Shown here: one piece after another, positions 4,205-43,388 of the stretch
Position numbering within the stretch: the stretch's first letter is position 1
Layout of the letters: the number at the start of each line of letters is the position of its first letter
DNA from: an uncultured Siphonobacter sp.
GTDB taxonomy: Bacteria > Bacteroidota > Bacteroidia > Cytophagales > Spirosomataceae
Assembly: GCA_913775095.1 (NCBI GenBank)
Contig: CAJYIW010000024.1
Coordinates: 248,001-312,000 of the forward strand
Direction: 5' to 3'
DNA length: 64,000 bases
Made by a program: the position numbers and the translations under genes
Notes under the pieces: model-generated
What the model was told of the DNA's origin: nothing
Database searches by the model: none
What the model saw: only the letters and a program-made list of their open reading frames with translations

Positions 4205-4220
4205 CGGCATAGCTTTGGAA
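4205..4220 (+). promoter_or_regulatory. putative sigma-54 (-24/-12) promoter of the permease gene at 4249
   Basis: CGGCATAGCTTTGGAA has GG at 4206-4207, ten bases, then GA at 4218-4219 (sigma-54 consensus GG-N10-GC). The GGCA(C/T)AGCTTT(G/A)GAA core is almost identical to the one at 37039-37054. Transcription would start near 4231, 18 bp before the ATG. No TAnnTTTG box was seen here. Confidence 0.6.
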
Positions 4221-4248: not shown

Positions 4249-6660
4249 ATGCTTCGTAACTACTTTCTCGTTGCCTACCGCACCCTATTGCGTTACAAGG
4301 GTTATACCTTCATCAATGTCATCGGTCTGACCCTGGGGCTTACCTGTGGTATTCTGATTTTTCAGGTACTGAAATTTCAGACCAGTTTCGATAACTACCA
4401 CGCCAATAATGAGCGTATCTACCGGATTACAACGAAATTCAGCTCCGATGGGATTAGTTACTCCAGTGGTGTTCCCATGCCGCTGGGTGATGCTTTGCGG
4501 AACGACTTAAGTTTCTTCGAAAAAGTAGGCATGTCCTTTGAGACCTATAATACGCTGGTATCCATTCCTGATGCCGAAGGCAAACCGATCAAGAAATTCA
4601 GGGAAGAAAATAGCATTGCCTACGCCGACCCTTCCCATTTTGAAATTCTGAAAGCCCACTGGTTATCGGGCAATCCGCGTCAGTCGCTGAGTCAGCCGAA
4701 TACGGCCGTTCTAACGAAGAAAATGGCTAAAAAACTCTTCGGTGATGCCGATCCAATTGGCAAGATCGTTCGTATCAACAACGAACTGGACCTGAAGGTA
4801 ACGGGCTTACTGGAGGATCACCCCGAAAACACGGATTACAACCGCGATCTGTTTATTTCCTGGGAAACGCTTCGCAACTATAAAAATGCCGGAGGTTCAG
4901 GGTTCGAAAACTGGGGGGGAGTAAACTCCAGCGTTCGTTGCCTGGTCTTACTCAAAGCAAACGCTGACCTTAAAACGGTTGACAAAGCCATGCTCGGCCT
5001 TATTAAGAAATATCATAAGCAGGAAGCCAATGAATGGGGCCATCCGATGGTTCATCTCACTGACATTCACTTCGATACCAATTATGAAGCCAGCATGGGT
5101 AAAAGTCAATTATACGCCCTGGCGGTTATTGGACTATTTCTGGTTCTGACGGCCTGCATCAACTTCATTAACCTGGCCACGGCTCAGGCCCTGAAGCGTT
5201 CGAAAGAAGTAGGCGTCCGCAAGGTGATTGGCGGTACGAAAAGCCAGCTTTTCTGGCAGTTTATTTCCGAAACAGGATTAATTACTCTCGTGTCTGTCAT
5301 CTTTGCCATTCTGATGGTTGAACTAGCACTTCCATCCATCAATCACTGGGTTTATGAATCGGCAGGCCTCAATTTGTTTGGTAATTTCTCGCTGTTCTCT
5401 GACGCGTACATGGCCTTTTTCCTGCTGGGCTTGTTGTTGATCGTAACCTTATTTTCAGGTTTTTATCCGGGACTGGTTCTGGCGGGTTTTCAACCCGTGG
5501 CGGCTTTGAAGGGCAAAATCAGTACCCAGCAGGTCGGTGGACTTTCCGTGCGGAGAAGTCTGGTGGTCGTGCAATTCGTACTGACGCAGGTGCTCATCAT
5601 CGGGGCTATTGTGATTACCCAGCAAATGGAATTTTTCCGGGGAAAAGACATCGGCTACGATCCTTCGGCCATCGTCATGATTAACCTGCCCACCCGGGAT
5701 AAAGTAACTGAAGCCCTGCGTCACCGGCTCATGAAAGTGCCCGGCGTTGAGAAAGTTACCTTTGCCTCTTTTGCTCCGACCAGCAATTCCAATAACAATA
5801 CAAGTCACCGGTTTGACAATCGTCAGGAAAATGAGAAATGGTCGGTAAATACCAAACCCGCCGATCATCATTACCTCGAAACGTTCGGGCTGAAACTGGT
5901 GGCGGGAAAAAACATTCCTCAGGGCGACACCACGAGAGGTTTTCTGGTCAATGAAACGTTCGTCAAACGATTGGGTGGCAACCTTAAACCAGTCGACGTT
6001 GTGGGCCGTAACCTTGAGGTCTGGGGCCGTACGGCACCGATCTATGGGGTCATGAAAGACTGGAACAACCTTTCCTTACACAATGAAATTCAGCCCGTTG
6101 CTGTATTTGCCGATCATGATTCCTTCTACAGTGGAGCTTTGAAAGTGAATACGGCTCATTTACAGCAAACGCTGGCGGGCATCGAACGAATCTGGAATGA
6201 AATCTACCCCGACTATCTCTATAATCAGACCTTCCTCGACGAACGTATTGCCCAGTCCTATGAAACTGAAAACCTGATTCTTCAACTCATCCGCACCTTT
6301 TCTTTCATCGCCATTGTCATTGGCTGTCTGGGATTATACGGGCTGGTGAGTTTCATGGCGGCTCAGAAAACCAAGGAAATTGGCGTTCGGAAAGTACTCG
6401 GAGCCAGTGTAGGACAGATTTTAGGGCTATTCGGAATGGAGTTTGGCAAACTCGTGATTATTGCCTTCGTGGTAGCGGCTCCCCTAAGCTGGTGGGTAAT
6501 GACGCAGTGGCTGGAAGATTACAGCTACCGCATCAGCATTGGCTGGACGGTTTTCGTACTGGCCATTTTCATCACGGCCCTCATCGCCGTTTTCACCGTC
6601 GGCTATCAATCCTTCCGGGCCGCCACGGCTAATCCGGCCCGGAGCCTGAAAAGTGAATAG
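4249..6660 (+). CDS. FtsX/MacB-like ABC transporter permease
   Basis: 803 residues, a full two-module permease. It begins MLRNYFLVAYRTLL, has a first membrane helix at about 18-42, a periplasmic MacB core domain with VFGDADPIGK-like and VTGLLEDHPENTDY motifs, an FtsX domain (helices near 284-310, 340-360 and 385-415, with SKEVGVRKVIGGTKSQL between them), a second periplasmic domain, and a second FtsX domain with KEIGVRKVLGASVGQIL. It ends NPARSLKSE. It lacks an ATPase domain, so it must pair with a separate ATP-binding subunit such as the one at 37079. The paired operators and -24/-12 element upstream suggest sigma-54 control. Substrate unknown. Confidence 0.92.
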   Translation: MLRNYFLVAYRTLLRYKGYTFINVIGLTLGLTCGILIFQVLKFQTSFDNYHANNERIYRITTKFSSDGISYSSGVPMPLGDALRNDLSFFEKVGMSFETYNTLVSIPDAEGKPIKKFREENSIAYADPSHFEILKAHWLSGNPRQSLSQPNTAVLTKKMAKKLFGDADPIGKIVRINNELDLKVTGLLEDHPENTDYNRDLFISWETLRNYKNAGGSGFENWGGVNSSVRCLVLLKANADLKTVDKAMLGLIKKYHKQEANEWGHPMVHLTDIHFDTNYEASMGKSQLYALAVIGLFLVLTACINFINLATAQALKRSKEVGVRKVIGGTKSQLFWQFISETGLITLVSVIFAILMVELALPSINHWVYESAGLNLFGNFSLFSDAYMAFFLLGLLLIVTLFSGFYPGLVLAGFQPVAALKGKISTQQVGGLSVRRSLVVVQFVLTQVLIIGAIVITQQMEFFRGKDIGYDPSAIVMINLPTRDKVTEALRHRLMKVPGVEKVTFASFAPTSNSNNNTSHRFDNRQENEKWSVNTKPADHHYLETFGLKLVAGKNIPQGDTTRGFLVNETFVKRLGGNLKPVDVVGRNLEVWGRTAPIYGVMKDWNNLSLHNEIQPVAVFADHDSFYSGALKVNTAHLQQTLAGIERIWNEIYPDYLYNQTFLDERIAQSYETENLILQLIRTFSFIAIVIGCLGLYGLVSFMAAQKTKEIGVRKVLGASVGQILGLFGMEFGKLVIIAFVVAAPLSWWVMTQWLEDYSYRISIGWTVFVLAIFITALIAVFTVGYQSFRAATANPARSLKSE

Positions 6661-6890
6661 TTGCTGGTCTTGGGTTGTTCATTGCTGGTTATTAGTTGTT
6701 TTAAAAAGAAGCAGCGAGCCACTAAAAAAGCCATTCTGAGACGGGTTAACCAAAGGGCTGTCTTTAAAACCAACTTCCCGAGAAAACCAACCTTTGGTAA
6801 AGTTTAGTTTAAAGCAACCTTTTTAATTCCCATGCAACGAAAAATCCGGCTTTTTCATCTTTGACTCATACGCCGTTAAACCTTTACCCC

Positions 6891-9266
6891 ATGATACGTA
6901 ATTACTTCAAAGTTGCCATTCGGGCTTTACTCAAAAATAAGGTTTACTCCCTCATTAATATCCTCGGGCTAGCCCTGGGCATGGCCGTGACCATGCTGAT
7001 TGGCCTCTGGATTTGGGACGAACTCACCTACGATCGCTACCATCAGAATTACGATCGGATTGCTCAGGTGATGATTCACCAGACCTGGGACGGCCGGAAA
7101 GGGACTCAGACGGCCGTCCCGGTTCCGCTTCACCATGAGCTCAAGGAGAAATATTCAGATTTTAAATACGTGGTTCCCAGCTCCTGGACCTTCGGCCACA
7201 TCCTGGCTTATCAGGATACCAAACTGAACAAATCAGGCAACTACATGGGCGTAGACGGGCCCGATCTGTTCTCGCTTGACATGGTGAAAGGCACCAGAAA
7301 GGGATTGAAAGATCCGCATTCCATTCTCATCGACGAATCCCTGGCGAAAGCCCTGTTTCGGGGGGAAGATCCGATTAACAAAGTCGTTAAGCTCGATAAT
7401 AAATCAGAAGTAAAAGTAACCGGAGTTTACAAGGACTTTCCCAAGAATACGGAGCTTAATGAAGTACATTACCTCCTGCCCTGGGATCTGTATCTGATCG
7501 TAGAATCCTGGGTCAAGGAAAGTCGGGAGGAATGGGGGAATAACTCTTTCCAGGCCTACGTTCAGCTCCAGCCTACCGCTGATATGGACAAGGTTTCCGC
7601 TAAAATCAAGAATACCATTCTCAATCATGTGCCCAAAGATGCTGCGAAGCCGGAAGTCTTTCTCCATCCCATGTCGAAATGGCATTTATATTCTGAATTC
7701 AAAAACGGAGTCATTACCGGTGGCCGAATTGAGTTTGTCTGGTTGTTTGGCTGTATTGGGGCGTTCGTATTACTGCTGGCCTGTATCAATTTCATGAATC
7801 TCAGCACGGCCCGCAGCGAAAAGCGGGCCAAGGAAGTAGGCATTCGTAAAGCCATTGGTTCGGTTCGGACGCAGCTCATTGGTCAGTTTCTGAGTGAGTC
7901 GTTACTGGTTTCTGTTCTGGCTCTGGCCCTGAGTATTTTGCTGGTCGAAGCCTCTTTGCCTTTCTTTAATGATCTATCCAGCAAGCACCTGTCCCTGCCC
8001 TGGGACAATCCCCTGTTCTGGCTGGCAGCCATTGGCTTTACTTTATTTACCGGAGTAATTTCAGGCAGTTATCCAGCCTTCTACCTATCCTCCTTTGAAC
8101 CCGTTCAGGTACTGAAAGGCACCTTCCGCGTGGGCCGTTACGCGTCCTTACCCCGCAAAGTGCTGGTGGTCTTGCAATTCACCGTTTCAGTAACGCTGAT
8201 CATTGGCACAATTGCCGTGTTTCGTCAGGTACAGTTCGCCAAGGATCGGCCCGTTGGGTTTACCCGTGAAGGACTGATCTACCTGACGATGAATACCGAA
8301 GAGAGTTATAAAAACTACGCGGCCTTCCGGACGGAGCTGCTTTCCAGCGGAGTGGTTGCGAACGTGACCAAGTCGTCCAGTCCGATTACGCAACTCTATT
8401 CCAACCAGATTGGCTTCGACTGGAAAGGCAAGGATCCCAACAAACAGGCTCTATTCGGAACGGTTGCCGTGAGTGAAGATTTCGGCAAAACGGTGGGTTT
8501 ACAATTCGTAAACGGGCGTGATTTTTCCACGAAATTCGCTACTGACTCCACCGCTATGATTATGAACGAATCAGCGGCCAAATACACCGGAATGAAAAAT
8601 GTGGTCGGTGAAACCATCAAATGGAATGGCAAGGACTATACGGTCGTCGGGGTAGTGAAAGATGTCATCATGGATTCGCCCTACCGGCCCGCTATGGCGA
8701 CGGTCTTCACGTATAATCCCAGCTGGTCGGGTATCATTACCATCAAAATTGCTCCGCAAACGGGCGTAAGCCGGGCTCTGAGTCGCATTGAAGAAATCTA
8801 TCGCAAACACGATCCCGGAGCTCCGTTCGACTATAAGTTTTCCAGCGATGAATACGCTCAGAAATTCGCTTCGGAAGTTCGCGTGGGTAAACTCGCTACC
8901 TTCTTTGCCTGTCTCGCCATCTTCATTTCCTGTTTGGGACTGTTCGGACTGGCTTCTTTCGTCGCCGAACAACGCATCAAGGAAATTGGCGTACGGAAAG
9001 TGCTGGGAGCCTCCGTTTTCAACCTCTGGGGCTTACTATCGAAAGACTTTGTGGGACTGGTTCTTATTTCGTTCTGTATTTCTGTTCCCATTGCCTGGTA
9101 TTTCATGAATAACTGGCTCTCGCGTTACGAGTACCATTCCGATCTTAGCTGGTGGATTTTCGCCAGTGCGGGCATTGGAGCTCTGGTGGTGACCCTGGCC
9201 ACGGTTAGCTATCAGGCCATTTCGGCAGCATTAATGAACCCGGTAAAGAGTTTAAAAACCGAGTGA
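6891..9266 (+). CDS. FtsX/MacB-like ABC transporter permease
   Basis: 791 residues from ATG 6891 (MIRNYFKVAIRALLKN). A TTG at 6861 is in frame, but paralogues start with M(L/I)RNY(F/L), so the ATG is preferred. Order: N-terminal helix, periplasmic MacB domain, FtsX domain with KEVGIRKAIGSVRTQL, second periplasmic domain, FtsX domain with KEIGVRKVLGASVFNL, terminal NPVKSLKTE. It is most similar to the permease at 19969-22368 (shared KNKVYS, GLKDPHSIL, LACINFMNLSTARSEKRA), pointing to a duplication. It lies 230 bp after the permease at 4249; a weak CATCTTTG box at 6855-6862 may give it its own promoter. No ATPase domain. Confidence 0.92.
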   Translation: MIRNYFKVAIRALLKNKVYSLINILGLALGMAVTMLIGLWIWDELTYDRYHQNYDRIAQVMIHQTWDGRKGTQTAVPVPLHHELKEKYSDFKYVVPSSWTFGHILAYQDTKLNKSGNYMGVDGPDLFSLDMVKGTRKGLKDPHSILIDESLAKALFRGEDPINKVVKLDNKSEVKVTGVYKDFPKNTELNEVHYLLPWDLYLIVESWVKESREEWGNNSFQAYVQLQPTADMDKVSAKIKNTILNHVPKDAAKPEVFLHPMSKWHLYSEFKNGVITGGRIEFVWLFGCIGAFVLLLACINFMNLSTARSEKRAKEVGIRKAIGSVRTQLIGQFLSESLLVSVLALALSILLVEASLPFFNDLSSKHLSLPWDNPLFWLAAIGFTLFTGVISGSYPAFYLSSFEPVQVLKGTFRVGRYASLPRKVLVVLQFTVSVTLIIGTIAVFRQVQFAKDRPVGFTREGLIYLTMNTEESYKNYAAFRTELLSSGVVANVTKSSSPITQLYSNQIGFDWKGKDPNKQALFGTVAVSEDFGKTVGLQFVNGRDFSTKFATDSTAMIMNESAAKYTGMKNVVGETIKWNGKDYTVVGVVKDVIMDSPYRPAMATVFTYNPSWSGIITIKIAPQTGVSRALSRIEEIYRKHDPGAPFDYKFSSDEYAQKFASEVRVGKLATFFACLAIFISCLGLFGLASFVAEQRIKEIGVRKVLGASVFNLWGLLSKDFVGLVLISFCISVPIAWYFMNNWLSRYEYHSDLSWWIFASAGIGALVVTLATVSYQAISAALMNPVKSLKTE

Positions 9267-17468: not shown

Positions 17469-19862
17469 TTATTCCGATTTCAAACTTTTCACCGGATCGG
17501 CACTGGCCGCCCGTATGGCCTGGCTACTGACCGTCAGCAACGCCAGGATCAGGGCGATGAGTCCTGCCAGGGCAAAGGCAAACCAGCCTATTTCAATGCG
17601 AACGGCATAGTCTTTCAGCCAATCCTGCATGAAATACCAGGCCAGCGGAAAGGCGATGGCACTGGCGATGACTACCAGCCTTAAAAATTCTTTCGACACC
17701 AGCAGGGTAATGCTGGCCATGCTCGCTCCCAGTACTTTTCTGATGCCAATTTCTTTCCGACGGGTTTCCACGGCAAACGTTGCCAGACCGAACAAGCCCA
17801 GACAGGCAATAAGAATGGCAATGCTCGTGAAGAAGGTAAGCATGGTTCCTAACTTGGACTCCGTTTTATAAAGGGCATCGTACGCTTCATCCAGAAAATA
17901 GAACGTGAAGGGATATTGGGTTTCGTATTTTCTGAAAATGTTCTCTACGTTTTTCAATTGCTTCTGAACATCCGTTCCGGCCGCCAGTTTCAAATACAGG
18001 CATCCCCCGTAATTCATTATTTCACTGCTGGTATCAGCCACTACCGTAATGCCTAAGCCGTCGGTTCCTTCCTTACTCGAAAACAGATTAAAATCCTCGA
18101 TAACCCCGGCGATTTCAGAAGCGGTGTTCCCTAATGTAATTTTTTCTCCTACGGGACTTTGAGTAAAACCAAACTCTTTCACAGCCGAGGCATTCAGGAT
18201 CAAAACCGAACGCTGATCCAGACGCTGTGGTTTTTTCTTCCAACGCACGTTCATGGTTTCGAAAAAAGCGACATCCACTGCCGTTACCTTGAAGGGTACT
18301 TCTTTCTTCGTTACCGGCGATTGGGTATAATACATATTGACCCCCGATTTATACAAAGGCCAGCTCGCCGCTGCCACCGACTGAATGCCACTTTGCCGCC
18401 TCAACTCCTGCTTGAAAGCTGCGTAATGAGTATTCATGTTTTGGGGAACTTCCAGTACGACGATTCCTTCTTTTTCCAGTCCCACGTTCTGCCTGCGAAG
18501 AAAATCCAGCTGGTTTTTAACGATTAGGCTACAGACAATCAGGCCTACCGAAATGGAGAACTGAAAAACGGTAAGCGTCCGGCGAAGGGTAACTCCGCCC
18601 AGTCTGGAAAGCTTTCCTTTCAATACTTCAGCCGGAGCAAAACTGGAGAGCAATAAGGCGGGGTAACTCCCGGCCAGCAGCGTACAAATGACCAGTAGCC
18701 CAAGTAATAGCCCTAAAAACAGCGGAGTGGTTAAAAAGGAGGCATTGATGTGTAGCTCCAGCAAGTTAAAGAAATAAGGCCTTAACCCTTCCACAAGTAA
18801 TAAACTCAGTCCGAAACCAATCAGGGTTACTAAAACTGATTCAGTATAAAACTGCAGGGCCAGATTACTCCGCAACCCTCCCAGCACCTTTCGAACGCCT
18901 ACTTCCCTGGCTCGCTGCGTAGCTCGGGCGGTGGTTAGATTCATGTAATTGATCAACGCCAGTGAAAGAATGGCAAGGGCAATTCCGGCAAACAGATTCT
19001 GATACTGCTGGGAATGGTTCACCATCAGTCCTTTCAGGTGTAAATCAGGGAAAGACTCCAGGACAAACTCTTCCGTGGGTTCTCCTTTTTTGACCGGAGC
19101 ATCTTTGGCGTGAAGTTGGGAGAGAAGTTTTTCAACGTTGCCCTTATTTTCTGCCTTCGTCAGCAAGAAATACGTGTTAAAGGCCCCCGCTCCCACGTGG
19201 CTATAGCCCAGCTGCATTTCCAGCCCTTTATCGTAGGGAGCTAAATTTTTCTGGGTGCTGAATGAAATCAATCCCTCGAACTGAAGCGTGCTATTGGATG
19301 GTAATTCTCCGAAAACTCCCGTTACTTCCAGATTAATCTTATTGTCATACGTCAGCGTTTTTCCGAGTGGATTTTCGGTACCAAAATATTTTAACGCCAG
19401 GGCTTGTGAGAGTACAATGGTATTAACCCGACTCAGAGCATTCGCTGGGTTACCTTTCTGTAAGGGATACGTAAAAACCTGAAAAAAGGAAGGATCGGCA
19501 AAATGCAGTTTATCTTCAAAGGAGTGAACGTTTGTCACTGTTTTCAGTACCGTCCGTCCGGCGGGACGCATCCGTACGTTCGCTTCGACCAGATCCGGGC
19601 GGGACGTCTGCGTTCGTGGACCCAGCTGAGCCGACATAGCCTGTACCTGCATCGTATTCCCACCGAACGGAATGCGGTCTAATACCTGAAAAATGCGGTT
19701 ACCCCTGCTCTGGAAGTTCTCATAACTGTATTCATGAACTACGTACACTAAGATCAGAATACTAATGGATAACCCGGCGGCCAGTCCACCGATATTCAGG
19801 AAACTGTATAACGGATTCCTTCTCAGGTTCCGAAGCGTGATTTGAATGTAGTTCTTGAGCAT
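17469..19862 (-). CDS. FtsX/MacB-like ABC transporter permease
   Basis: 797 residues, starting MLKNYIQITLRNLRRNPLYSFLNIGGLAAG and ending DPVKSLKSE. It has the usual order: first helix, periplasmic MacB domain (FGTENPLGKTL, VTGVFGELPSNS), FtsX domain with REVGVRKVLGGLRSNL, second periplasmic domain, final FtsX domain with KEIGIRKVLGASMASI. No ATPase domain. It is the last gene of a three-permease minus-strand run, 106 bp after the gene at 19969. The most diverged of the three, so it probably is not a recent duplicate. Confidence 0.92.
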   Translation of the reverse strand: MLKNYIQITLRNLRRNPLYSFLNIGGLAAGLSISILILVYVVHEYSYENFQSRGNRIFQVLDRIPFGGNTMQVQAMSAQLGPRTQTSRPDLVEANVRMRPAGRTVLKTVTNVHSFEDKLHFADPSFFQVFTYPLQKGNPANALSRVNTIVLSQALALKYFGTENPLGKTLTYDNKINLEVTGVFGELPSNSTLQFEGLISFSTQKNLAPYDKGLEMQLGYSHVGAGAFNTYFLLTKAENKGNVEKLLSQLHAKDAPVKKGEPTEEFVLESFPDLHLKGLMVNHSQQYQNLFAGIALAILSLALINYMNLTTARATQRAREVGVRKVLGGLRSNLALQFYTESVLVTLIGFGLSLLLVEGLRPYFFNLLELHINASFLTTPLFLGLLLGLLVICTLLAGSYPALLLSSFAPAEVLKGKLSRLGGVTLRRTLTVFQFSISVGLIVCSLIVKNQLDFLRRQNVGLEKEGIVVLEVPQNMNTHYAAFKQELRRQSGIQSVAAASWPLYKSGVNMYYTQSPVTKKEVPFKVTAVDVAFFETMNVRWKKKPQRLDQRSVLILNASAVKEFGFTQSPVGEKITLGNTASEIAGVIEDFNLFSSKEGTDGLGITVVADTSSEIMNYGGCLYLKLAAGTDVQKQLKNVENIFRKYETQYPFTFYFLDEAYDALYKTESKLGTMLTFFTSIAILIACLGLFGLATFAVETRRKEIGIRKVLGASMASITLLVSKEFLRLVVIASAIAFPLAWYFMQDWLKDYAVRIEIGWFAFALAGLIALILALLTVSSQAIRAASADPVKSLKSE

Positions 19863-19968: not shown

Positions 19969-22368
19969 TTACTCCGACTTCAAACTCTTCACCGGATTCA
20001 TCAGAGCCGCACTAATCGCCTGATAACTTACCGTGACTAAGGTAATGGACAAAGCTCCCAGACCGGAAACGATAAACACCCACCAGTGAATGGTCGTACG
20101 ATACTCATATTTTTCGAGCCAGCCCGCCATGAAGTAATACGCAATGGGAATGGCGATTCCGCAGGAAAGTAACACCAGCACGATAAAATCTTTGGATAAC
20201 AGCTGCCATAAACTCAGCACCGAAGCCCCCAGCACTTTTCTCACGCCGATTTCTTTGGTTCGCTGTTCGGCAACGAAGGAAGCAAGTCCGAATAATCCTA
20301 AACAGGAAATCAGAATGGCCAGCCCGGCAAACACGCCTGCAAGCGTTCCGATCTGCACTTCCGCCGCAAATTTGCGACCGTAACTGTCGTCTGCAAACTG
20401 GTAATCAAAGGGAGCCGAAGGGATGATTCGTTTGAAGACGGTCTCGAGTCTGGCCAGCGATTCGTGCGTACTGATTTTTGGATTGAGCCGGAACACCATC
20501 CAGCTAAAACTATCCACATGGGGCAGATAGACCGTAGGTTTTACGGGACCGTAAGGCGAGCCCATGATCATGTCTTTTACTACACCAATGATGGTATAAT
20601 CCCGTGATTCTCCCTTATTACCCCAGGTTATGACTTTACCAACCGGATCTTTAATGCCGGTAAACCGGGCAGCGGATTCATTCAGAATAATAGCGGAGGA
20701 ATCCGTAGCATGAGCAGACGATAAATCCCGCCCCTCGCGGAATTGCCAGCCTACGGTTTTGCCATAATCATAGGTGACGAAAATTGTACCGAAATCTACA
20801 TCCAGATTGGGATCTTTCCCCGCCCAGTTGAAGGACGAACTACTCGACCATATCTCCGTCAAAGGGCTGGAAGATTCCGTCATCTCTTCAATCGCTCCGA
20901 TACTTTTAAGCTCATTTCGCAAGACCTCATACTTACCAAAAAAATCGGGCGATTTCATCTGAATCATGACCAGTCCCTCCCGGTTAAAACCCGCCGGACG
21001 GTTCTTGGAATACTGAATTTGCTGGTAAACGATGACGGTTCCAATGATCAGGGTAATGGAAACCGTGAACTGCAAAACCACTAAAACCTTACGCGGTACT
21101 GCGGCCAGTGACCCGGCCATAAAGGTTCCCTTTAACACTTTCACGGGCTGAAACGAAGAGAGGTATAATGCAGGATAACTTCCTGCCAGCAGGCTGGTAC
21201 TGACTACAAAAGCCAGGCTGATCATCCAGAAGCAGGCATTATTCCAAAGAAACGTAATTTGCTTATTAGCAATCTGATTGAACCAGGGTAATGAAATCTC
21301 AACCAGCAGAATGGATAATGCAAAAGCCAGCAGAACGACCAGCAGGGATTCCGTGAAAAACTGAGCAATCAGCTGTTGACGAAGCGAGCCAATGGCTTTG
21401 CGAATGCCTACCTCCCGGGCTCGTTTTTCACTGCGGGCCGTACTGAGATTCATGAAGTTAATGCAGGCCAGCAAGATCACGAAAACGCCGATGATGCCAA
21501 ATAACCAGACGTATTCAATGGCTCCGCCGGTTTGATACCCATTTTTATCCCAGCTCGAATGCAGGTGCCACTCGGCCATGGGATGTACGAAAATCGCAGC
21601 TTTGTACTTTTGATCGGCCTTGCTTAATTTCTTGAGCTTAGCATTTACAATGGTCCGGTTTACGGTCTCAAAATCAGTGTTATCCGCAATCTGAGCAAAA
21701 AGCTGAAAGGAATTATTGCTCCACTGCGTTTTGGCTCGCTCAAACCAGCGTTCGGTTGTGATATATAAATCCCAGGGAGCAATGAAAGTAACTTGCTGAA
21801 AATGGGAGTTGGGGGGCAGGTTTTCATACACACCCGTTACCTTCACCTCCAGCTTGTTATCAATTCGCAGCACATGGTTAAGAGGATCGGTATCTCCAAA
21901 TAACGATTGAGCGGTGGATTCCGAAAGCAGGATCGAGTGCGGATCTTTCAGTCCTTCCTGCGAGCCCCGTTTCATCCGCAGGGACAGCATTTTCGGAGCG
22001 TCCGCTCCCATGTACAAACCCGGATAGGACATTTTTTTGTCACCGTAAGTCAGAATATGACTGCCTTCCCAGGAGGCCATTGCCAGGTATTTGAAATGTC
22101 CACCGTAGGTACTGGCCAGCTCATTTCCCAGCGGTAGCGGAACTGCCGGCTCCGTGCCTACCTCACCATTAACGGTTTGCTGCTGCATAACCTGCCCTAC
22201 CCGGTCATAGGATTCGTGATAGGTATCGTAGGAAAGCTCATCGTGAATCCAGAGTCCAATCAGTAGAGCTACCGCCATTCCGACGGCTAATCCACCAACG
22301 TTAATGAAGGAATACACCTTGTTTTTCAACAGGTTGCGAACAGCGATGAGGAGATAGTTACGCAGCAT
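19969..22368 (-). CDS. FtsX/MacB-like ABC transporter permease
   Basis: 799 residues, starting MLRNYLLIAVRNLLKNKVYSFINVGG and ending NPVKSLKSE. Both FtsX coupling motifs are present (REVGIRKAIGSLRQQL and KEIGVRKVLGASVLSL). It closely resembles the permease at 6891-9266 through its whole length, including the periplasmic GLKDPHSIL and APWDLYI stretches. Middle gene of the three-gene operon; 84 bp separate it from the upstream gene and a GC hairpin (22419-22447) lies in that gap. No ATPase domain. Confidence 0.92.
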   Translation of the reverse strand: MLRNYLLIAVRNLLKNKVYSFINVGGLAVGMAVALLIGLWIHDELSYDTYHESYDRVGQVMQQQTVNGEVGTEPAVPLPLGNELASTYGGHFKYLAMASWEGSHILTYGDKKMSYPGLYMGADAPKMLSLRMKRGSQEGLKDPHSILLSESTAQSLFGDTDPLNHVLRIDNKLEVKVTGVYENLPPNSHFQQVTFIAPWDLYITTERWFERAKTQWSNNSFQLFAQIADNTDFETVNRTIVNAKLKKLSKADQKYKAAIFVHPMAEWHLHSSWDKNGYQTGGAIEYVWLFGIIGVFVILLACINFMNLSTARSEKRAREVGIRKAIGSLRQQLIAQFFTESLLVVLLAFALSILLVEISLPWFNQIANKQITFLWNNACFWMISLAFVVSTSLLAGSYPALYLSSFQPVKVLKGTFMAGSLAAVPRKVLVVLQFTVSITLIIGTVIVYQQIQYSKNRPAGFNREGLVMIQMKSPDFFGKYEVLRNELKSIGAIEEMTESSSPLTEIWSSSSSFNWAGKDPNLDVDFGTIFVTYDYGKTVGWQFREGRDLSSAHATDSSAIILNESAARFTGIKDPVGKVITWGNKGESRDYTIIGVVKDMIMGSPYGPVKPTVYLPHVDSFSWMVFRLNPKISTHESLARLETVFKRIIPSAPFDYQFADDSYGRKFAAEVQIGTLAGVFAGLAILISCLGLFGLASFVAEQRTKEIGVRKVLGASVLSLWQLLSKDFIVLVLLSCGIAIPIAYYFMAGWLEKYEYRTTIHWWVFIVSGLGALSITLVTVSYQAISAALMNPVKSLKSE

Positions 22369-22452: not shown

Positions 22453-24882
22453 TCATTCTGATTTCAGACTTTTCACCGGGTTGACCAGGGCGGCTCTAAC
22501 GCTCTGAAAACTTACCGTAGCCAGGGCAATGGCAATAGCCAGTAAACCCGCCAGAGCAAACACCCACCATTCGAGTGACACGCGATAGGCAAAATCCTGT
22601 AGCCATTCGTTCATGGCGTACCAGGCCAGTGGAATGGCCATGAGAAAGGCCACACCCACCAGTTTCAGGAAATCCCGGGAGAGCAGAGCCAGAATGCTGC
22701 CCGTCGAAGCACCCAGGACTTTCCGAACGCCGATTTCCTTGGTTCGCTGCTGAGCCGTGAACGTTGCCAGTCCAAAGAGACCCAGACAGGCTACGAAGAT
22801 CGTTAATCCGGCAAAAACGCTCAGAATGGTTCCCGTTTTCTGCTCCTGTCTGTATGTATTAAAAAAACGATCATTCAGGAACGAGTAACTGAACGGCACC
22901 TCGGTAGGGTAACGGTTCCATTCGTTCTGCATGGTTTGCAGTAAGCCCGGCACGTCTTTGGTTTTTGTTTTGATAATCAGGTTTCCTCCCTGACTTTTCT
23001 GCGTCATGACCAGAGGGGTAATCAGCTCATGTAAAGACCGGAAATGGAAATCCTTCACTACCCCAATCACCCGATAGCTTTCAGCGATGCCGTTGTTTTC
23101 CCGTCTGATCAACGTACGGCCCAGCACCTGGCCCTTCCAGCCCAAAGAGCGAATGGCGGCTTCGTTCAGAATGATACCCGAGGAATCGGTAGCCATTTTT
23201 TCCGAGAAATTGCGTCCTTCAGCCATCTGAATTCCCAGCGTTGGAATATACTGGGGATCCACGTCATACCGCAGGGTTTTCACGAGCAGATCGGGGTTTT
23301 GATCGGGAGCTACAAAAAAGTTGTTACTGTTGCTCGGACCAGCGGGCACATAGTCAGACGAGCTGATGGACCGCACCCGGGAATCGCCCAGCAATCGCTG
23401 ACGAAAGGCCTGCTGATTCTGCTGCAAGGCCCAGGTTTCGGGCAAAACAATGACTTCTTCTTTCTGATAGCCCAGTTCTTTATTTTCGATAAACGAGAGC
23501 TGACGGTACACCACGGTGGTACAGATCATCAGAGCAATGGAAACGAAAAACTGAAACACGACCAGTCCGTTTCTGAAACTCAAACTTCCCTGTCCCATTT
23601 TAAAGGTACTGCTTCCGCCTTTCAGCACTGATAAGGGGTTGAAGGAAGACAGAAAAAAGGCGGGGTAACTTCCGGCTAACAAGCCAACCAGTCCGACGAG
23701 CGAAACCAACGTCAACAGCAACCCGGGACTCAGTAGCGAAGGCAAGCCTAACTGTTTACCGGAAAGCTGATTAAACGCCGGCAGGGCCAGATCAACCAGC
23801 CATAAGGCGAGGAATAAAGCAATGCCCGTCAATAAAATAGATTCAAACAAAAACTGACGCATCAGCTCCGACTGAGCCGAACCTAATACTTTACGAATAC
23901 CGACTTCCCGAGCCCGCCGGGATGCCCCCGCTGAGGACAGATTCATGAAATTAATGCAGGCAATCAGTAGCATTAACAGAGCGATGGCTCCGGCAATGTA
24001 GACCGTTTGTGCATTTCCGGGGGCGGAAAGGTCGTAGGTAAAATCGGAGTGCAGGTGAATGTCCGTGAGGGGTTGCAGAAACAGACCCAGGGAGTTACCC
24101 TTTTTCCAGAATTCCTGATAACTCATGCCAAAGGCTTTTTCCAGTTGTGGTCCGAGTTTTGAGGCCACGACTTGGGGTAACTTGGCTTCCAGCTTTTTAT
24201 AATCCGAGCCTTCGCGGAGGACGAGGTACGTAAAAAACTCAGAAGTCATCCAGGAGTCAGACTGGGCCTCTGCCAAACCCGACATGGAAGCCAGCATATC
24301 CAAATGAAAATGAGAATTCTGGGGGAGGTCTTTCATGACACCCGTCACCTGAAAAGAGCTCTTCCAGTCTCTGATCTCCAGAACTTTACCTATGGGATCC
24401 GTATCGCCAAAATACTTCTGAGCTACCGTCTCCGAGATTACGATGGACGAAGGATTCAGAAGAGCCGTTTTGGGATCACCCTTCAGCAGTGGCAAAGTGA
24501 ACACCTGAAAAATATTAGAGTCCGCATACGCCAGCACACTTTCCCGCAGGCTCTTGTTGCCGTAGCTCACAAAAGGGGTTCCGGCCATTCGGAGACGGAC
24601 GGCCTGTTCTACTTCAGGGAAGCTGCTCTTCAGCGTACGAGCCGTCGGTGGCATAACGTGAGCATCCTTAATGGCCCCGCCCTGCGTATACCCCCTGAAT
24701 ACCACCCGAACGATGCGGTCGGCTTTTTCGTGAAAGCGGTCATACCTCAGCTCATCCGTTACGAAAAGCATAATCAGCAGGCAGGTAGCCAGTCCTAAGG
24801 CCAGCCCCGTGATATTAATCAGCGTAAAGGCCCGATTGCGGACCAGGTTCCGCCAGGCAACGATGAAGTAGTTTCTAAGCAT
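22453..24882 (-). CDS. FtsX/MacB-like ABC transporter permease
   Basis: 809 residues, starting MLRNYFIVAWRNLVRNRAFTLINITGLALG and ending NPVKSLKSE. It has an N-terminal helix, periplasmic MacB domain (YFGDTDPIGKVLEI, VTGVMKDLPQNSHF), FtsX domain with REVGIRKVLGSAQSEL, second periplasmic domain, and final FtsX domain with KEIGVRKVLGASTGSI. First gene of the three-permease operon; its upstream region has paired palindromic operators and a GG-N10-GA element like those at 4112-4220 and 36947-37054, so sigma-54 control is inferred. No ATPase domain; substrate unknown. Confidence 0.92.
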   Translation of the reverse strand: MLRNYFIVAWRNLVRNRAFTLINITGLALGLATCLLIMLFVTDELRYDRFHEKADRIVRVVFRGYTQGGAIKDAHVMPPTARTLKSSFPEVEQAVRLRMAGTPFVSYGNKSLRESVLAYADSNIFQVFTLPLLKGDPKTALLNPSSIVISETVAQKYFGDTDPIGKVLEIRDWKSSFQVTGVMKDLPQNSHFHLDMLASMSGLAEAQSDSWMTSEFFTYLVLREGSDYKKLEAKLPQVVASKLGPQLEKAFGMSYQEFWKKGNSLGLFLQPLTDIHLHSDFTYDLSAPGNAQTVYIAGAIALLMLLIACINFMNLSSAGASRRAREVGIRKVLGSAQSELMRQFLFESILLTGIALFLALWLVDLALPAFNQLSGKQLGLPSLLSPGLLLTLVSLVGLVGLLAGSYPAFFLSSFNPLSVLKGGSSTFKMGQGSLSFRNGLVVFQFFVSIALMICTTVVYRQLSFIENKELGYQKEEVIVLPETWALQQNQQAFRQRLLGDSRVRSISSSDYVPAGPSNSNNFFVAPDQNPDLLVKTLRYDVDPQYIPTLGIQMAEGRNFSEKMATDSSGIILNEAAIRSLGWKGQVLGRTLIRRENNGIAESYRVIGVVKDFHFRSLHELITPLVMTQKSQGGNLIIKTKTKDVPGLLQTMQNEWNRYPTEVPFSYSFLNDRFFNTYRQEQKTGTILSVFAGLTIFVACLGLFGLATFTAQQRTKEIGVRKVLGASTGSILALLSRDFLKLVGVAFLMAIPLAWYAMNEWLQDFAYRVSLEWWVFALAGLLAIAIALATVSFQSVRAALVNPVKSLKSE

Positions 24883-24909: not shown

Positions 24910-24924
24910 TCAATTCTTATGCCG
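24910..24924 (-). promoter_or_regulatory. putative sigma-54 (-24/-12) promoter of the three-permease operon
   Basis: On the minus strand the sequence reads CGGCATAAGAATTGA, with GG at 24923-24922, ten bases, then GA at 24911-24910. It keeps the GGCAT start and the -12 TTGA of the sigma-54 class. Transcription would start near 24898, 16 bp before the ATG at 24882. Confidence 0.58.
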
Positions 24925-24989: not shown

Positions 24990-25027
24990 TGTTCAATAAT
25001 GAACAGTGAAGAGTACGATACCGGACA
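24990..25027 (-). promoter_or_regulatory. paired 16-bp palindromic operators of the three-permease operon
   Basis: Read on the minus strand, TGTCCGGTATCGTACT (25027-25012) is followed after 6 bp by TGTTCATTATTGAACA (25005-24990), a perfect dyad. Centre spacing is 22 bp, as at 4112-4149 and 36947-36984. The second site has TGTTCA/TGAACA in place of TGTnCG/CGnACA, so it is the weakest match. The gap to the -24 GG is 66 bp, one helical turn more than at the other two loci. Confidence 0.62.
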
Positions 25028-35902: not shown

Positions 35903-36928
35903 ATGAAACGTTATCTACCCCTTCCATTATTTCTGCTTATGGCTGGTTCGCTGGCCGCTCAGTCCAGTCAGGATGAGCCTTATCAAACGAAGACCTTCAC
36001 GGGTAATCTTTCCGACATTCGGGTGGATGTTTCCGGGGGCAGTATTCAGGTACATGGAGGTAAGGACCGGGACGTAAAAGTGGAAATGTACGTCACTCTT
36101 AATAACTGGCCTGCCAACAAAATTGATAAAGCAGAAATCGAAAAACGTCTGAATGACTATGAATTAGTAATGAAAACAGAAGGCTCTTCTGTTATTCTAT
36201 CGTCACGCCGTAAAGCAGAGGTAAACTGGGACTCCAAACGTTCCGTCAATGTTTCGTTCAAGGTTTTCACTCCGCAGAATTTCACTACCAATCTAAAAAC
36301 CAGCGGCGGTAGCATTCGTTTGGCGAATCTGAACGGTTCCCAGCAGTTTCAAACCAGCGGCGGTAGCCTGCACATGACCGAGGTTTCCGGAAAAATTCAG
36401 GGACGCACCAGCGGCGGTAGCATTCACCTGGAAAAATGCCGGGACGAAATGGATCTGCAAACGTCGGGAGGCAGTATTCACGCCGAAGAACTGGTGGGAA
36501 AAATCAGTCTTAAAACGTCCGGCGGAAGTCTGCGTTTAAACCACCTCGACGGTATTATCGAAGCAACCACCAGTGGAGGCAGTATTAACGGCGAAGACAT
36601 TGCGGGTGAGTTACACACGCGAACCTCCGGCGGCAGTATCCGACTGTCGGAAATGACGGCTGCACTGGACGCGGAAAGCAGTGCGGGTAGTGTGGATGTA
36701 GAAGTCAAAAAACTGAATAAGTATCTGAAGTTACGGTCTTCGTCGGGTAGCGTCAGGGTTCGGCTGTCCGAAAAACCCGGCGTTGATCTGGCGATCCGGG
36801 GCAATCGGGTGAAGTTTCCTCTGGCCGGGTTTCGCGGGGAAGCCGATGAATATCACGTCAATGGATCGCTCAACGGGGGTGGCGTCCCGGTAACCATCAC
36901 GGCTACGAACAACGTTTCGATTCAGTAA
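35903..36928 (+). CDS. secreted DUF4097-like beta-helix protein with TSGGS repeats
   Basis: 341 residues with signal peptide (MKRYLPLPLFLLMAGSLAAQ). From residue 133 the motif T-S-G-G-S-(I/L) recurs at residues 133, 151, 169, 187, 205, 223 and 241, followed by ESSAGSV at 259 and RSSSGSV at 279; the first eight are exactly 18 residues (54 bp) apart. A further VSGGSIQV is near residue 44. This fits a right-handed parallel beta-helix, as in DUF4097 proteins (a family linked to anti-sigma/envelope functions and adhesins). The exact role is unknown. It is transcribed away from the two-component system; the operators at 36947 lie after its stop. Confidence 0.85.
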   Translation: MKRYLPLPLFLLMAGSLAAQSSQDEPYQTKTFTGNLSDIRVDVSGGSIQVHGGKDRDVKVEMYVTLNNWPANKIDKAEIEKRLNDYELVMKTEGSSVILSSRRKAEVNWDSKRSVNVSFKVFTPQNFTTNLKTSGGSIRLANLNGSQQFQTSGGSLHMTEVSGKIQGRTSGGSIHLEKCRDEMDLQTSGGSIHAEELVGKISLKTSGGSLRLNHLDGIIEATTSGGSINGEDIAGELHTRTSGGSIRLSEMTAALDAESSAGSVDVEVKKLNKYLKLRSSSGSVRVRLSEKPGVDLAIRGNRVKFPLAGFRGEADEYHVNGSLNGGGVPVTITATNNVSIQ

Positions 36929-36946: not shown

Positions 36947-36984
36947 TGTCCGAAAGCGTACACTAAGTTGTACGTTTTCGGACA
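36947..36984 (+). promoter_or_regulatory. paired 16-bp palindromic operators upstream of the ATPase-TolC operon
   Basis: TGTCCGAAAGCGTACA (36947-36962) and TGTACGTTTTCGGACA (36969-36984) are inverted near-copies with a 6-bp spacer, again 22 bp centre to centre. The first site matches the one at 4112-4127 in 15 of 16 bases. They lie 54 bp before the -24 GG. Confidence 0.75.
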
Positions 36985-37037
36985 TATTTATTTCATAACT
37001 AGTTGATTATTAATCAATTTTACAATAAATGAACGTT

Positions 37038-37054
37038 TGGCACAGCTTTAGAAA
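37038..37054 (+). promoter_or_regulatory. putative sigma-54 (-24/-12) promoter of the ATPase-TolC operon
   Basis: TGGCACAGCTTTAGAAA has TGGCAC (a full -24 box) with GG at 37039-37040, ten bases, then GA at 37051-37052. Transcription would start near 37064, 15 bp before the ATG. The core matches the element at 4206-4220. Confidence 0.66.
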
Positions 37055-37078: not shown

Positions 37079-37765
37079 ATGATTGTACTGAACGACATTG
37101 AACGATATTTTCAGAACGGTTTTACCAAGACCTATATTCTTCGCCACGTTTCTACGGAAATCAAAGCCGGTGAATTTGTGAGTATCATGGGGCCTTCCGG
37201 AGCCGGAAAATCTACCTTACTCAACATCATTGGCCTGCTGGACCAGCCTACTTCCGGCGAATATTTATTCCTGGATCAACCCGTTCAGAAATTAAGCGAG
37301 AAAAAACGCTCGGAGTTATATAAAGCCTACATCGGTTTCGTATTTCAGGCCTACCATTTAATTGACGAGCTAACCGTTTACGAAAACCTGGAGACCCCTC
37401 TGCTTTACAAAAACGTACCCAGTTCTGAACGCAAAAGTCGCATTGCTGACATTCTGGATCGCTTCAACATGGTGGCCAAGAAAGACCTTTTCCCCAATCA
37501 GCTTTCCGGCGGACAGCAGCAACTGGTCGGCATTGCCCGAGCTCTGATCGGTCAGCCTAAAATCATTCTTGCCGATGAACCCACGGGTAACCTCCAGTCG
37601 GCTCAGGCGGAAGAAATCATGCAGATTTTCAAGCAGTTGAATCAGGAAGGCATCACGATCATTCAGGTAACGCACTCCGAAAAAAATGCTTCTTACGGCA
37701 ATCGGATTCTTCACCTAAACGATGGCAAAATCGTTGAAGACGTTCGGGTTGAATCTGTAGTGTAA
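37079..37765 (+). CDS. ABC transporter ATP-binding protein (MacB/LolD type)
   Basis: 228 residues. Walker A GPSGAGKST near 42-50, Q loop with FQAYHL, signature LSGGQQQ, Walker B IILADEPTGNL, and H loop QVTHSE. The length and layout match the LolD/MacB-type ATPase subunits that pair with FtsX-fold permeases. No permease follows; instead a TolC-like gene starts 38 bp later. The six ATPase-less permeases in the window are likely partners, an inference strengthened by the shared operators and -24/-12 element. Confidence 0.94.
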   Translation: MIVLNDIERYFQNGFTKTYILRHVSTEIKAGEFVSIMGPSGAGKSTLLNIIGLLDQPTSGEYLFLDQPVQKLSEKKRSELYKAYIGFVFQAYHLIDELTVYENLETPLLYKNVPSSERKSRIADILDRFNMVAKKDLFPNQLSGGQQQLVGIARALIGQPKIILADEPTGNLQSAQAEEIMQIFKQLNQEGITIIQVTHSEKNASYGNRILHLNDGKIVEDVRVESVV

Positions 37766-37803: not shown

Positions 37804-39114
37804 ATGAAAAAGCTTATTCTCGGAGGTTTTCTGCTCCTTAGCGGTATGCTACAGGCTCAGACTCCTATGACTCTCAAAGAAGCCGTCGGCACGGCAATCC
37901 GTAATAACCTCAACGTTCGTCAGAATGAATTGAGCCTTGAAACGAGCCATAACAACCTGACTCAGTCGAAGTTAGCACTTCTTCCATCCGCTCAGGCCAA
38001 TGCCTCGCAATCGCTCAACTATGGTCGAAGCATTGACCCTTATACGAACGTATACGTCAATCAGCAACTCAATGCCTCTAACTTTAGTATGTCAGCGGGC
38101 CTGGTTCTTTACAACGGACTCTTCTATCGCAATACCATTCGTCAGAACAATTTGTTGTTAAAAGCAAGCGAGCAGGACGTTCAGCAGGCTAAGGATGTTA
38201 TTACCATCAATACCATTCTGGCCTACCTGCAGGTGCTGAGCAGTGAAGATCAGGTTAATCTGGCCACCCAGCAACTGGACGCTTCCAAAATGCAACTGGA
38301 ACGTACCGCTGAGTTGGTAAAGGCCGGAAACCTGGCTCCCGCCGACGAATATACCCTGGCCTCTCAGGTCGCTACCGATCAATTGAATCTGGTCACGGCT
38401 CAGGGACAACTGAAACTGAACCGCCTCACCTTCTGGCAAACGCTCAATAGTCCACAAACGCCGCTGGATTTCAAGCTGGAACGCTTAACCCCTGAAGGCG
38501 AAATGGGCTACGAAACGTCAGCGTCTAAAATTTATGAAGCAGCCGATCAGAACCTGGCCATGATTAAAGCGGCTAAATACCGGGTTTTGAGTTTCGATCA
38601 GGCCATCCGGGCTCAGAAGGGACTGCTGGTACCTCAGCTTTCTCTGAATTCGTTCATCAGTACACGTTATTCCTCCACGGCTGCCATCAATTATGGCGAG
38701 CAGTTGGGTAATAACTTCAACCGAAACTTTTCACTGGATTTGTCCATTCCCATTTTCCGAAGCTGGATTTATAAAAACCGGATTCAGAATGCTATTGTGG
38801 ATAAGAAAAAAGCGGAGGTTCAGGTACAAAGTGTGCAGGTACAGGTAAAGCAGGGCATTGAGCAGGCGTACGCCAATCTGGAAGTAGCCAAGATGCGGTA
38901 CGATGCCCTGGAGGGACAGGTAGTCAGTTTTTCCGAAACTCTGGCTTCCGCAGAAAGTCGTTTTCAGGCCGGTACGCTGAACGTAGTTGAATACAACATC
39001 GCTAAAACCAACCTCGACCGGGCTCGCTTAAATCAGGTTCAGGCTCGTTACGATTACCTGTTCCGGGTAAAGATTCTGGATTACTACCAGGGCAAGAACC
39101 TGTTTATTGATTAA
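37804..39114 (+). CDS. TolC-family outer-membrane channel protein
   Basis: 436 residues with signal peptide (MKKLILGGFLLLSGMLQAQ). The two-repeat coiled-coil layout (about 25-215 and 225-430) with PSAQANASQSLNYGRSIDPYTN near the first beta hairpin and FNRNFSLDLSIPIFRSW near the second marks an outer-membrane efflux protein. It is 38 bp after the ATPase gene and probably co-transcribed. A membrane-fusion protein is missing from the cluster. Convergent to the PspC-domain gene. Confidence 0.92.
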   Translation: MKKLILGGFLLLSGMLQAQTPMTLKEAVGTAIRNNLNVRQNELSLETSHNNLTQSKLALLPSAQANASQSLNYGRSIDPYTNVYVNQQLNASNFSMSAGLVLYNGLFYRNTIRQNNLLLKASEQDVQQAKDVITINTILAYLQVLSSEDQVNLATQQLDASKMQLERTAELVKAGNLAPADEYTLASQVATDQLNLVTAQGQLKLNRLTFWQTLNSPQTPLDFKLERLTPEGEMGYETSASKIYEAADQNLAMIKAAKYRVLSFDQAIRAQKGLLVPQLSLNSFISTRYSSTAAINYGEQLGNNFNRNFSLDLSIPIFRSWIYKNRIQNAIVDKKKAEVQVQSVQVQVKQGIEQAYANLEVAKMRYDALEGQVVSFSETLASAESRFQAGTLNVVEYNIAKTNLDRARLNQVQARYDYLFRVKILDYYQGKNLFID

Positions 39115-41945: not shown

Positions 41946-43388
41946 ATGCAGCGACTGACCCAAACGCAACGACAGACTCTGAAATTTTCACCCCTCCAGA
42001 TTCAGATGTTGAATTTGTTGGGATTAAATACACTTGAGCTGGAACAAAAGATCAAGGATGAGCTGGAAGAAAACCCGGTTTTAGAAGAGGGGGCGGAAGC
42101 TTCGGAAACCGCTGAAGAAGGGGCCGATGCTTCCGATGAGTTCCAGACGGATGCCAATGATCTTCCTACCGATGACTTCCGGGATTGGGATGAATTCGCC
42201 GATGATGATATTCCTGAATATAAAACCCGTTCGGATAATTTTGCGGCCGATGAAGATTACTACACCTCCCCTATTGTGCAGCAGAATACCTGGCGGGATG
42301 AACTGAAAGAACAGGTAGGAACCTTGGATTTAACGGAACGCCAGCGGTTAATCGCCGATTTCATTGTGGATTCACTCGATGACGATGGTTTTCTGAAATA
42401 CGATGCCTATAACCTGGCCGATGATATCAGTTTTACTAACAATTTGTGGGTAGAAGAGGCAGAAATCGAGGAAATTCTTCCCCTGATCCGGGCTTTGGAA
42501 CCCGCCGGAATTGCCGCCCGTGATCTTCAGGACTGCCTGCTTCTTCAACTGGAACGTAAACCGCACACGCTCGAAAATCAGTTAAGCATGGATGTGGTTC
42601 GCAAGCACATGCACGAACTGGCCGGGCGTAACTATGAGAAGATCATGCGGATCATGGATCTGGATAACGATCAGTTAAAAGAAGTTCTGTCTATCATTGC
42701 CCACCTGAACCCAAAACCCATTGTAGGCGGTCAGAACAGCAGCATGGTGGTTAACGAAAATATTCTCCCGGAGTATTTTGTCACTAATGACGGCGGACAT
42801 TTTGAAGTAAATCTCAACGGAAGAGATTTGCCGAGCATCCGGTTGAATAAATCAGTCATTGAAATGGCTGAGTCCCGTAATAAAAGCGACCGGGCGACCT
42901 CGCAGTTTGTTAAAAGTAAATTAGCTTCTGCCCGCTGGTTTATTGATGCTCTGAAGCAACGGGAGCAAACGATGCTCAATACGATGCGTGCCATTATTGA
43001 GTTTCAGAAAGATTACTTTCTGACGGGAGACGTTCGCCAGCTAAAACCCATGATTCTTAAGGACATTGCCGATCGGATCGGAATGGACATTTCAACCATT
43101 TCCCGGGTTACCTCAGGAAAGTACGCTCAAACGCCCTTTGGTATCATTCACCTCAAAGATCTATTTACCGAAGGGGTGAAAAACGAGGAAGGCGAAGAAG
43201 TCTCTAATCGGGAAATTCAACAGGCTATCGTAGAGATTATCGAGAAAGAGGACAAGCAATCACCTTACACTGATCAGCAGATTCAGGAAGTTCTGGCGGA
43301 AAAAGGGTATCCGGTGGCTCGACGTACGGTTGCCAAATACCGAGAGCAACTGAACATTCCGATTGCAAAAATTCGCAGAGAATTATAG
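41946..43388 (+). CDS. rpoN: RNA polymerase sigma-54 factor
   Basis: 480 residues with all three regions. Region I: MQRLTQTQRQTLKFSPLQIQMLNLLGLNTLELEQKIKDELEENP. Acidic region II at about 50-110 (EEGAEASETAEEGADASDE). Region III has the core-binding part, a helix-turn-helix near KDIADRIGMDISTISRVTSGKY, and the RpoN box near the C-terminus (ARRTVAKYRE), which recognises the -24 GG element. It is the likely partner of the -24/-12 elements at 4205, 24910 and 37038. A strong terminator follows. Transcribed divergently from lysS. Confidence 0.97.
   Translation: MQRLTQTQRQTLKFSPLQIQMLNLLGLNTLELEQKIKDELEENPVLEEGAEASETAEEGADASDEFQTDANDLPTDDFRDWDEFADDDIPEYKTRSDNFAADEDYYTSPIVQQNTWRDELKEQVGTLDLTERQRLIADFIVDSLDDDGFLKYDAYNLADDISFTNNLWVEEAEIEEILPLIRALEPAGIAARDLQDCLLLQLERKPHTLENQLSMDVVRKHMHELAGRNYEKIMRIMDLDNDQLKEVLSIIAHLNPKPIVGGQNSSMVVNENILPEYFVTNDGGHFEVNLNGRDLPSIRLNKSVIEMAESRNKSDRATSQFVKSKLASARWFIDALKQREQTMLNTMRAIIEFQKDYFLTGDVRQLKPMILKDIADRIGMDISTISRVTSGKYAQTPFGIIHLKDLFTEGVKNEEGEEVSNREIQQAIVEIIEKEDKQSPYTDQQIQEVLAEKGYPVARRTVAKYREQLNIPIAKIRREL

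Follow-up and report, generated by a model that had tools for sequence, protein, structure and literature searches.

The window, a stretch of 64,000 nt from an uncultured Siphonobacter sp. that corresponds to C24:248001-312000, carries on its plus strand an operon composed of an ABC ATPase gene (ATP2, 37079..37765) and a gene encoding a TolC-family outer-membrane channel (OEP/TolC, 37804..39114). Walker A and LSGGQ are intact in ATP2 and the D-loop Asp is absent. The operon is preceded by two near-palindromes, here referred to as the putative operator sites A (TGTCCGAAAGCGTACA, 36947..36962) and B (TGTACGTTTTCGGACA, 36969..36984), with the start of B situated 22 bp past the start of A. A -24/-12-like element of the sigma-54 type (TGGCACAGCTTTAGA, 37038..37052, plus strand) begins 54 bp past the last base of the pair. 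Re-reading of the coordinates confirmed this arrangement, which had been described in the original prediction. The assignment of site A is based on its sequence and on the fact that the pair is kept at the TolC loci of relatives. Upstream of the pair lies a gene for a DUF4097/LiaG-like exported protein (35903..36928, plus strand), which adjoins ATP2 in several relatives and genera and in S. aquaeclarae has its own pair and a promoter-like element (L205:7789); in the window it is regarded as a candidate member of the regulon only.

Similar promoter regions precede two permease loci. At locus 1, an operator pair with a spacer of 6 (4112..4149) is followed by the -24/-12-like element CGGCATAGCTTTGGA (4205..4219, plus strand) and by two genes for duplicated MacB/FtsX permeases, at 4249..6660 (803 aa, with 4+4 hydrophobic segments according to hydropathy) and at 6861..9266 (start codon uncertain), both on the plus strand. 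Locus 2 is located on the minus strand, with a pair of the same spacer and 3 mismatches (24990..25027; minus-strand reading 25027-24990, TGTCCGGTATCGTACT-N6-TGTTCATTATTGAACA), the -24/-12-like element CGGCATAAGAATTGA (24910..24924), which with 66 bp past the pair is an outlier in distance, and the duplicated MacB/FtsX permease genes 22453..24882 (809 aa), 19969..22368 (799 aa), and 17469..19862 (797 aa). All of these permeases contain two MacB_PCD and two FtsX stretches. Repeated stretches resembling GTGGCTGGTGAAGACACCAG were observed upstream of the locus 2 pair (25030-25240). As claimed before, 15 of 16 bases are identical between 36947-36962 and 4112-4127, and the -24/-12 stretch at 37038-37052 resembles that of locus 1 (12 of 15 bases, at 4205-4219). 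Domain matches likewise agree with the earlier reading that the loci at 4249 and 24882-17469 encode only permeases, and 37079 and 37804 an ABC ATPase and an OEP/TolC channel.

Considering the whole genome of 5.65 Mb, operator pairs with at most 3 mismatches were detected at three places with spacer 6 and at four places with spacer 5, and the reversed pattern at none with either spacer; the scan covered these two spacers, so that spacer 4, seen in relatives, was outside of it. Six of the seven pairs occur within 61 kb (C24:224-285 kb). This stretch also holds all eleven MacB/FtsX permeases of approximately 800 aa, a membrane-fusion protein (MFP) gene with a second ATPase gene (ATP1), and a divergently oriented activator of the sigma-54 type (EBP). 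Frames of approximately 800 aa with PF12704 are situated exclusively at C24:227-273 kb and represent the eleven permeases, and the remaining PF12704 matches fall in frames of approximately 400 aa. One pair (C24:224159) is located between the EBP gene and an operon of ECF sigma factor, MFP, ATP1, and permease genes; it has 0 mismatches and is accompanied by the promoter element TGGCACAGCTTTGGA. A second pair (C24:234744, 3 mismatches) lies ahead of permease 235203 at a distance of 423 bp, and the search with the -24/-12 pattern gave no match for it. Permeases 244174, C24:252249 (window 4249), and C24:272882 (window 24882, minus strand) and the ATP2-TolC operon (window 36947) each have their own pair ahead. 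The seventh pair, outside of this island (C25:75012; L076:1501-1537), precedes a gene for a protein of 212 aa, S212 (L076:1669-2304), which has a signal-peptide-like start, is not a transporter, had no match in the NCBIfam scan, and may be a candidate accessory member of the regulon. In its own genome, the operator-pair signal is nearly confined to this gene set.

The original prediction had called for a missing membrane-fusion protein with the same promoter. Exactly such a gene is given by the MFP gene at C24:224986-226251 (PF13437; RND_mfp above its cut-off), whose operon follows the pair with 0 mismatches and TGGCACAGCTTTGGA. This operon carries its own ATPase gene, ATP1, and then three permease genes before the next pair. 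The earlier idea of an exporter split under one regulator is thus retained with respect to shared control and to loci that complete each other, in agreement with the pairs and the MFP gene, and has to be given up with respect to ATP2 as the sole engine; due to ATP1 in the MFP operon, a single-ATPase system is rejected. The proposed dispersal holds in the sense of separate operons and not in the sense of genes scattered over the genome, since all of them occur within C24:224-287 kb; dispersal over the genome does apply to some relatives. A plasmid-borne origin was discarded as well: blastn of the ATP2-TolC operon against plasmids returned 61 records, no single place in any of them accounted for 80% of the query, and the matches listed (20) cover 5-6% of it. 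The closest named relatives belong to Siphonobacter, with TolC identities of 97, 78, and 69%.

An ECF sigma factor gene (L061:9346-9876, i.e., C24:224346-224876) heads the MFP operon in Siphonobacter (G000 and G018) and possibly forms a second regulatory layer. No match to it was found in the other eight mapped genomes; an ECF-like gene is situated near a kinase gene in L273. A second, compact MacB-type set (L201; C20:150-8692) comprises a kinase, an EBP, two permeases of approximately 400 aa, an ATPase, and an MFP, and no operator pairs of this type were detected in the 20 kb scanned around it.

ATP1 and ATP2 share 54% identity. In a tree of 102 ATPases, ATP1 (22, including the distant C20 paralogue on a long branch) and ATP2 (80) form two groups with a support of 100/100. 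Walker A and LSGGQ are intact in 102 of 102 sequences; the pattern used for Walker B was ill-fitted (0 of 102), and ADEP was read instead. A D-loop Asp is present in 22 of 22 ATP1 sequences and in 0 of the 79 ATP2 sequences read (Asn in 65, His in 8, Gln in 5, and Ser in 1; one of the 80 was not read), and 79 of 80 ATP2 sequences have a Leu after LSGGQQQ. Due to the absence of this Asp from ATP2 and its retention in ATP1, the sequences suggest two different engines per pump. The two halves of the permeases differ as well. Among 108 permeases, the pattern of the coupling motif matched 77 N halves and 105 C halves (departing sequences uncounted). Position 3 is Ala in 93% of the N halves and Phe or Tyr in 86% of the C halves, and position 12 is Val in 88% and Ile in 95%, respectively. 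This difference fits a predicted docking of one ATPase per half.

Co-occurrence was analysed in 61 genomes of the family with a completeness of at least 90%. The MFP is present in 53 of them, with one of this kind in each (53 of 53), ATP1 (at least 69% identity) in 53 and ATP2 (at least 66% identity) in 54, each with one copy per genome, and the EBP (E of at most 1e-140) in 52; G001 is without only the EBP at that threshold. Both MFP and ATP1 are absent from G009, G011, G012, G026, G031, G035, G047, and G051. Except for G012, ATP2 is also absent from all genomes without MFP and ATP1, so that the parts are lost together but for this one genome; G012 retains ATP2-TolC and a pair, and the search for MFP, ATP1, and EBP gave none there. 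The losses are spread over five genera, with g2 divided evenly (two genomes on each side). In a wider sample of 118 genomes drawn across the phylum, own genome counted, ATP2 (E of at most 1e-85) was identified in 24. For the 53 genomes with both ATPases, ATP1 and ATP2 are located on the same contig in 32 (8 within 25 kb, 19 at 25-111 kb, and 5 at more than 400 kb) and on different contigs in 21, for which draft assemblies are compatible with short as well as long distances. The split is thus common and variable, with one copy of each ATPase kept.

That shared regulation is real and nevertheless serves no single machine, i.e., that MFP-ATP1 and the downstream permeases constitute one exporter and ATP2-TolC is co-induced for another, is the alternative that survives best. 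It gains from the MFP operon, where ATP1 and three permeases already precede the next pair, from the separate tree groups of the two ATPases, and from the RND operon of the same 61-kb stretch (window 27800-33349), which encodes an adaptor and an OEP protein of its own. At L238, L239, L258, and L281, moreover, MFP loci with ATP1 and TolC are without ATP2 in the stretch fetched. However, these are four of eleven named loci showing an MFP. In the other 7, MFP, ATP1, permease(s), ATP2, and TolC occur together, which places the two ATPases alongside a single MFP and a single TolC: L212, L248, L263, L266, and L268 show MFP-ATP1-permeases-ATP2-TolC as one run, L210 has this run too, its permease frames being broken, and in L273 the parts are ordered differently. 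(L268 is labelled Williamsia, yet its ATPases group with those of Bacteroidota.) In the family, G039 has a single run of MFP-ATP1-seven permeases-DUF4097-ATP2-TolC, and ATP2 is situated beside permeases of the same family in G019 and G042. Together with the single MFP in 53 of 53 genomes, each with one ATP1 and one ATP2, these gene orders make two co-induced machines unlikely. The RND operon is taken as separate, and a reading with a shared chassis must exclude it as a partner; since RND pumps are not known to use an ATPase, it was set aside as a partner of ATP2. Gene order and joint loss in relatives point to products that would assemble into one machine, and very probably the parts function together under common regulation, with numerous membrane units that can be exchanged for one another.

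The regulator of these loci is probably the divergent EBP (C24:222662-224053; L061:7662-9053), which is composed of a receiver (PF00072), a sigma-54 AAA+ (PF00158), and a Fis-type HTH domain (PF02954). It adjoins the pair with 0 mismatches, and in its cluster it is accompanied by genes for a phosphotransferase-fold protein (PF01636, APH) and a histidine kinase. In Siphonobacter (G000 and G018), the APH-fold gene (L061:6630-7628) is situated between EBP and kinase. The genes are ordered ATP2-TolC-EBP in G055, G041, and G020, and a kinase gene follows farther on. The predicted partner, sigma-54, is encoded in the window by rpoN (41946..43388, plus strand), with AID, CBD, and DBD domains and the RpoN box ARRTVAKYR. 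NtrC-family activators are expected to have a GAFTGA loop; the loop reads GAFTDA in 10 of 10 aligned activators, the C20 paralogue included. The two-component pair at 33629-35723 was also considered as the sigma-54 activator and rejected, since 35031-35723 consists of a receiver and Trans_reg_C and is without an AAA+ domain.

Binding by the island EBP is a matter of inference, and five strong EBP matches, the island EBP among them, occur in the genome. The pairs could therefore be the sites of another regulator, be it a repressor or any of the other four strong EBPs. We consider this quite improbable, because the pair with 0 mismatches lies within the divergent promoter region of the EBP in both G000 and G018, and pairs were likewise found between EBP and MFP in G056, G019, G039, G042, and G029. 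Furthermore, one pair only lies outside of the island genome-wide (spacers 5 and 6), and none was found in 20 kb around the C20 EBP, which shares 43-44% identity with the island EBP.

The switch is also conserved in relatives. Across 102 regions (2.09 Mb), taken from the own genome, from nine relatives, and from 80 named TolC loci, 61 pairs with at most 3 mismatches were identified, compared to 1 in the reversed sequences. For 60 of the 61, a gene of the system other than the EBP is located within 700 bp, and the first gene after these 60 pairs is ATP2 in 22 cases, a permease in 29, MFP in 5, ECF in 2, and S212 and DUF4097 in 1 each. Due to the fact that the regions were chosen for holding these genes and that close relatives (e.g., G018 and L204) were counted apart, the association of pairs and genes arises partly by choice. 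This choice leaves unexplained a fixed offset: [ACT]GGCA is present in the zone of 48-60 bp after the pair in 54 of 60 cases, all of them at 51-56 bp, compared to a background of 1040 of 20400 random windows (5.1%). The GG at -24 of a sigma-54 promoter is thereby found at 54 of 60 pairs. The textbook -12 of such promoters is GC, ten bases on from the GG at -24; -12 was searched as GA, which differs from this consensus, and was present in 29 of 67 strand-oriented windows. The sites are arranged in tandem approximately two helical turns apart, with spacers of 4-6 and centres 20-22 bp apart (only spacers 4-6 were sought).

At most 4 mismatches allowed, a pair was observed at 23 of 30 TolC loci of the family and directly ahead of ATP2-TolC in 8 of 10 mapped genomes, the exceptions being G039 and G042. 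Among the 80 named TolC loci, at most 3 mismatches allowed, a pair was found in 24 and none in 56, some of which are short contigs. Some of these pairless loci have a related operator between EBP and MFP, consisting of two variants of TGTATCAAAACCGAACA with a spacer of 4-5 followed by TGGCA; the variants occur in L273 and L238 (mixed in L266 and L268) and were read by eye, as were the TGGCA words, and the promoter pattern gave no forward match on the EBP-MFP gaps of compact loci. Because of these related operators, the sequence of the operator appears to have diverged along with the lineages.

Lone 16-mers are weak evidence for regulation. In the window, the single 16-mer has 9 matches with at most 2 mismatches (3.4 on average after shuffling, with at least 9 in 3 of 100 shuffles), and genome-wide 51 rows were obtained with at most 1 mismatch compared to 45 for the reversed pattern. 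That the repeats are chance or an artefact of mobile repeats without a regulatory role has a negligible probability, since such abundance of single 16-mers contrasts with pairs of fixed spacing, for which the reversed-pattern and reversed-sequence controls gave zero or one match and ruled chance or a mobile repeat out, and with the 51-56 bp offset to GGCA in own and related genomes; the pair is not chance.

Among known systems, MacAB-TolC, the type VII ABC tripartite exporter, is the closest in composition. The permeases are of the MacB_PCD/FtsX type with MacB as the best solved relative, the NBD is MacB-like, MacA is among the solved relatives of the adaptor, and TolC is a solved relative of the channel; adaptor, FtsX/MacB permease, NBD, and TolC were all found present and linked. 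Unlike in MacAB-TolC, the NBD is separate from the permease, the permease is a fused 4+4 double, two NBD types occur, many permeases fall to one adaptor, and control is of the sigma-54 type. In the available parts of the sources, members with the MacB fold are described with one NBD type working as a homodimer (PMC8277102, PMC11466899), and in those of a review, fused MacB-type permeases have separate NBDs (PMC5985334). In the system described here, two NBD types are conserved side by side.

The models of the darobactin exporter DarBCD (NCBIfam NF038007/8/10) are the best curated ones for ATP1, ATP2, and MFP and the second-best for the two permeases scanned, but all scores are below the curated cut-offs (ATP1 288/375, ATP2 249/375, MFP 212/450, permeases 170 and 133/700), and membership in DarBCD was rejected. 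With the ADOP duplicated orphan permeases (TIGR03434), the permeases share the fused duplication and the occurrence of paralogues in operons without an ATPase. Full-length matches of the two permeases scanned reached 294.1 and 303.4 bits, below the cut-off of 622.3, and assignment to ADOP proper was rejected as well; in contrast to ADOP, ATPases, an adaptor, and a channel can be put forward as candidates here. A study of 2025 predicted sigma-54 promoters ahead of FtsX-like permeases (COG0577), with an enrichment in Bacteroidia and other groups; its accessible portion calls this first evidence and gives no activator, operator, adaptor/channel/ATPase regulon, or split system (PMC12316311). Among the literature matches listed (titles and starts of abstracts, non-subscription papers), none deals with this operator, regulon, or split exporter, and PMC12316311 is the only overlap. 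The observation is real and the original interpretation largely right, with a probable MacAB-TolC-like exporter split over several operons of the sigma-54 type, with one chassis and many permeases.

As a whole, it is likely that a sigma-54 upstream activating pair and its EBP drive this split exporter of one chassis and many permeases. The ATP2-TolC operon would be transcribed from a sigma-54 promoter, for which the pair at 36947-36984 would serve as the upstream activating site. An NtrC-type response regulator, most likely the divergent EBP, would be activated through phosphorylation by the histidine kinase of its gene cluster, presumably in response to an envelope-related signal. Two dimers of this regulator would then occupy one palindrome each, at a distance of two helical turns, and reach the RNA polymerase-sigma-54 poised at the GGCA 51-56 bp downstream to start transcription. 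The same switch would control the operon with MFP, ATP1, and permeases as well as another four permease units, so that one signal would yield the adaptor, the outer-membrane channel, two kinds of ATPases, and up to eleven alternative 8-TM permeases. Their products would form MacAB-TolC-like tripartite exporters, in which each permease may confer another cargo specificity on a shared chassis. Considering the MacB family and the LiaG-like neighbour, one may guess at a role in the export or efflux of envelope-active compounds.

A more specific proposal, which is conceivable and put forward tentatively, is that ATP1 and ATP2, as an obligate and asymmetric pair with and without the D-loop Asp, together with a single adaptor and a single TolC power at least eleven interchangeable fused permeases, with each half docking its own ATPase, and that one sigma-54 activator keeps chassis and fleet together even when the pieces have been moved megabases apart by rearrangement of the genome. 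If true, this would name the engine of the "orphan" duplicated permeases and represent a hetero-NBD form of the type VII fold.

Large sets of duplicated "orphan" permeases have so far been listed without an assigned function; in the excerpt available for Dyadobacter, two genomes have 28 and 33 copies of such duplicated permeases (PMC11573002). With one regulator, an adaptor, a channel, and two ATPases now tied to such a set, the power source of such permeases can be tested directly. Since one of the two ATPases that occur together is without the D-loop Asp, an asymmetric use of ATP is predicted in the MacB fold, and the operator can be used to map the regulon in related Bacteroidota.
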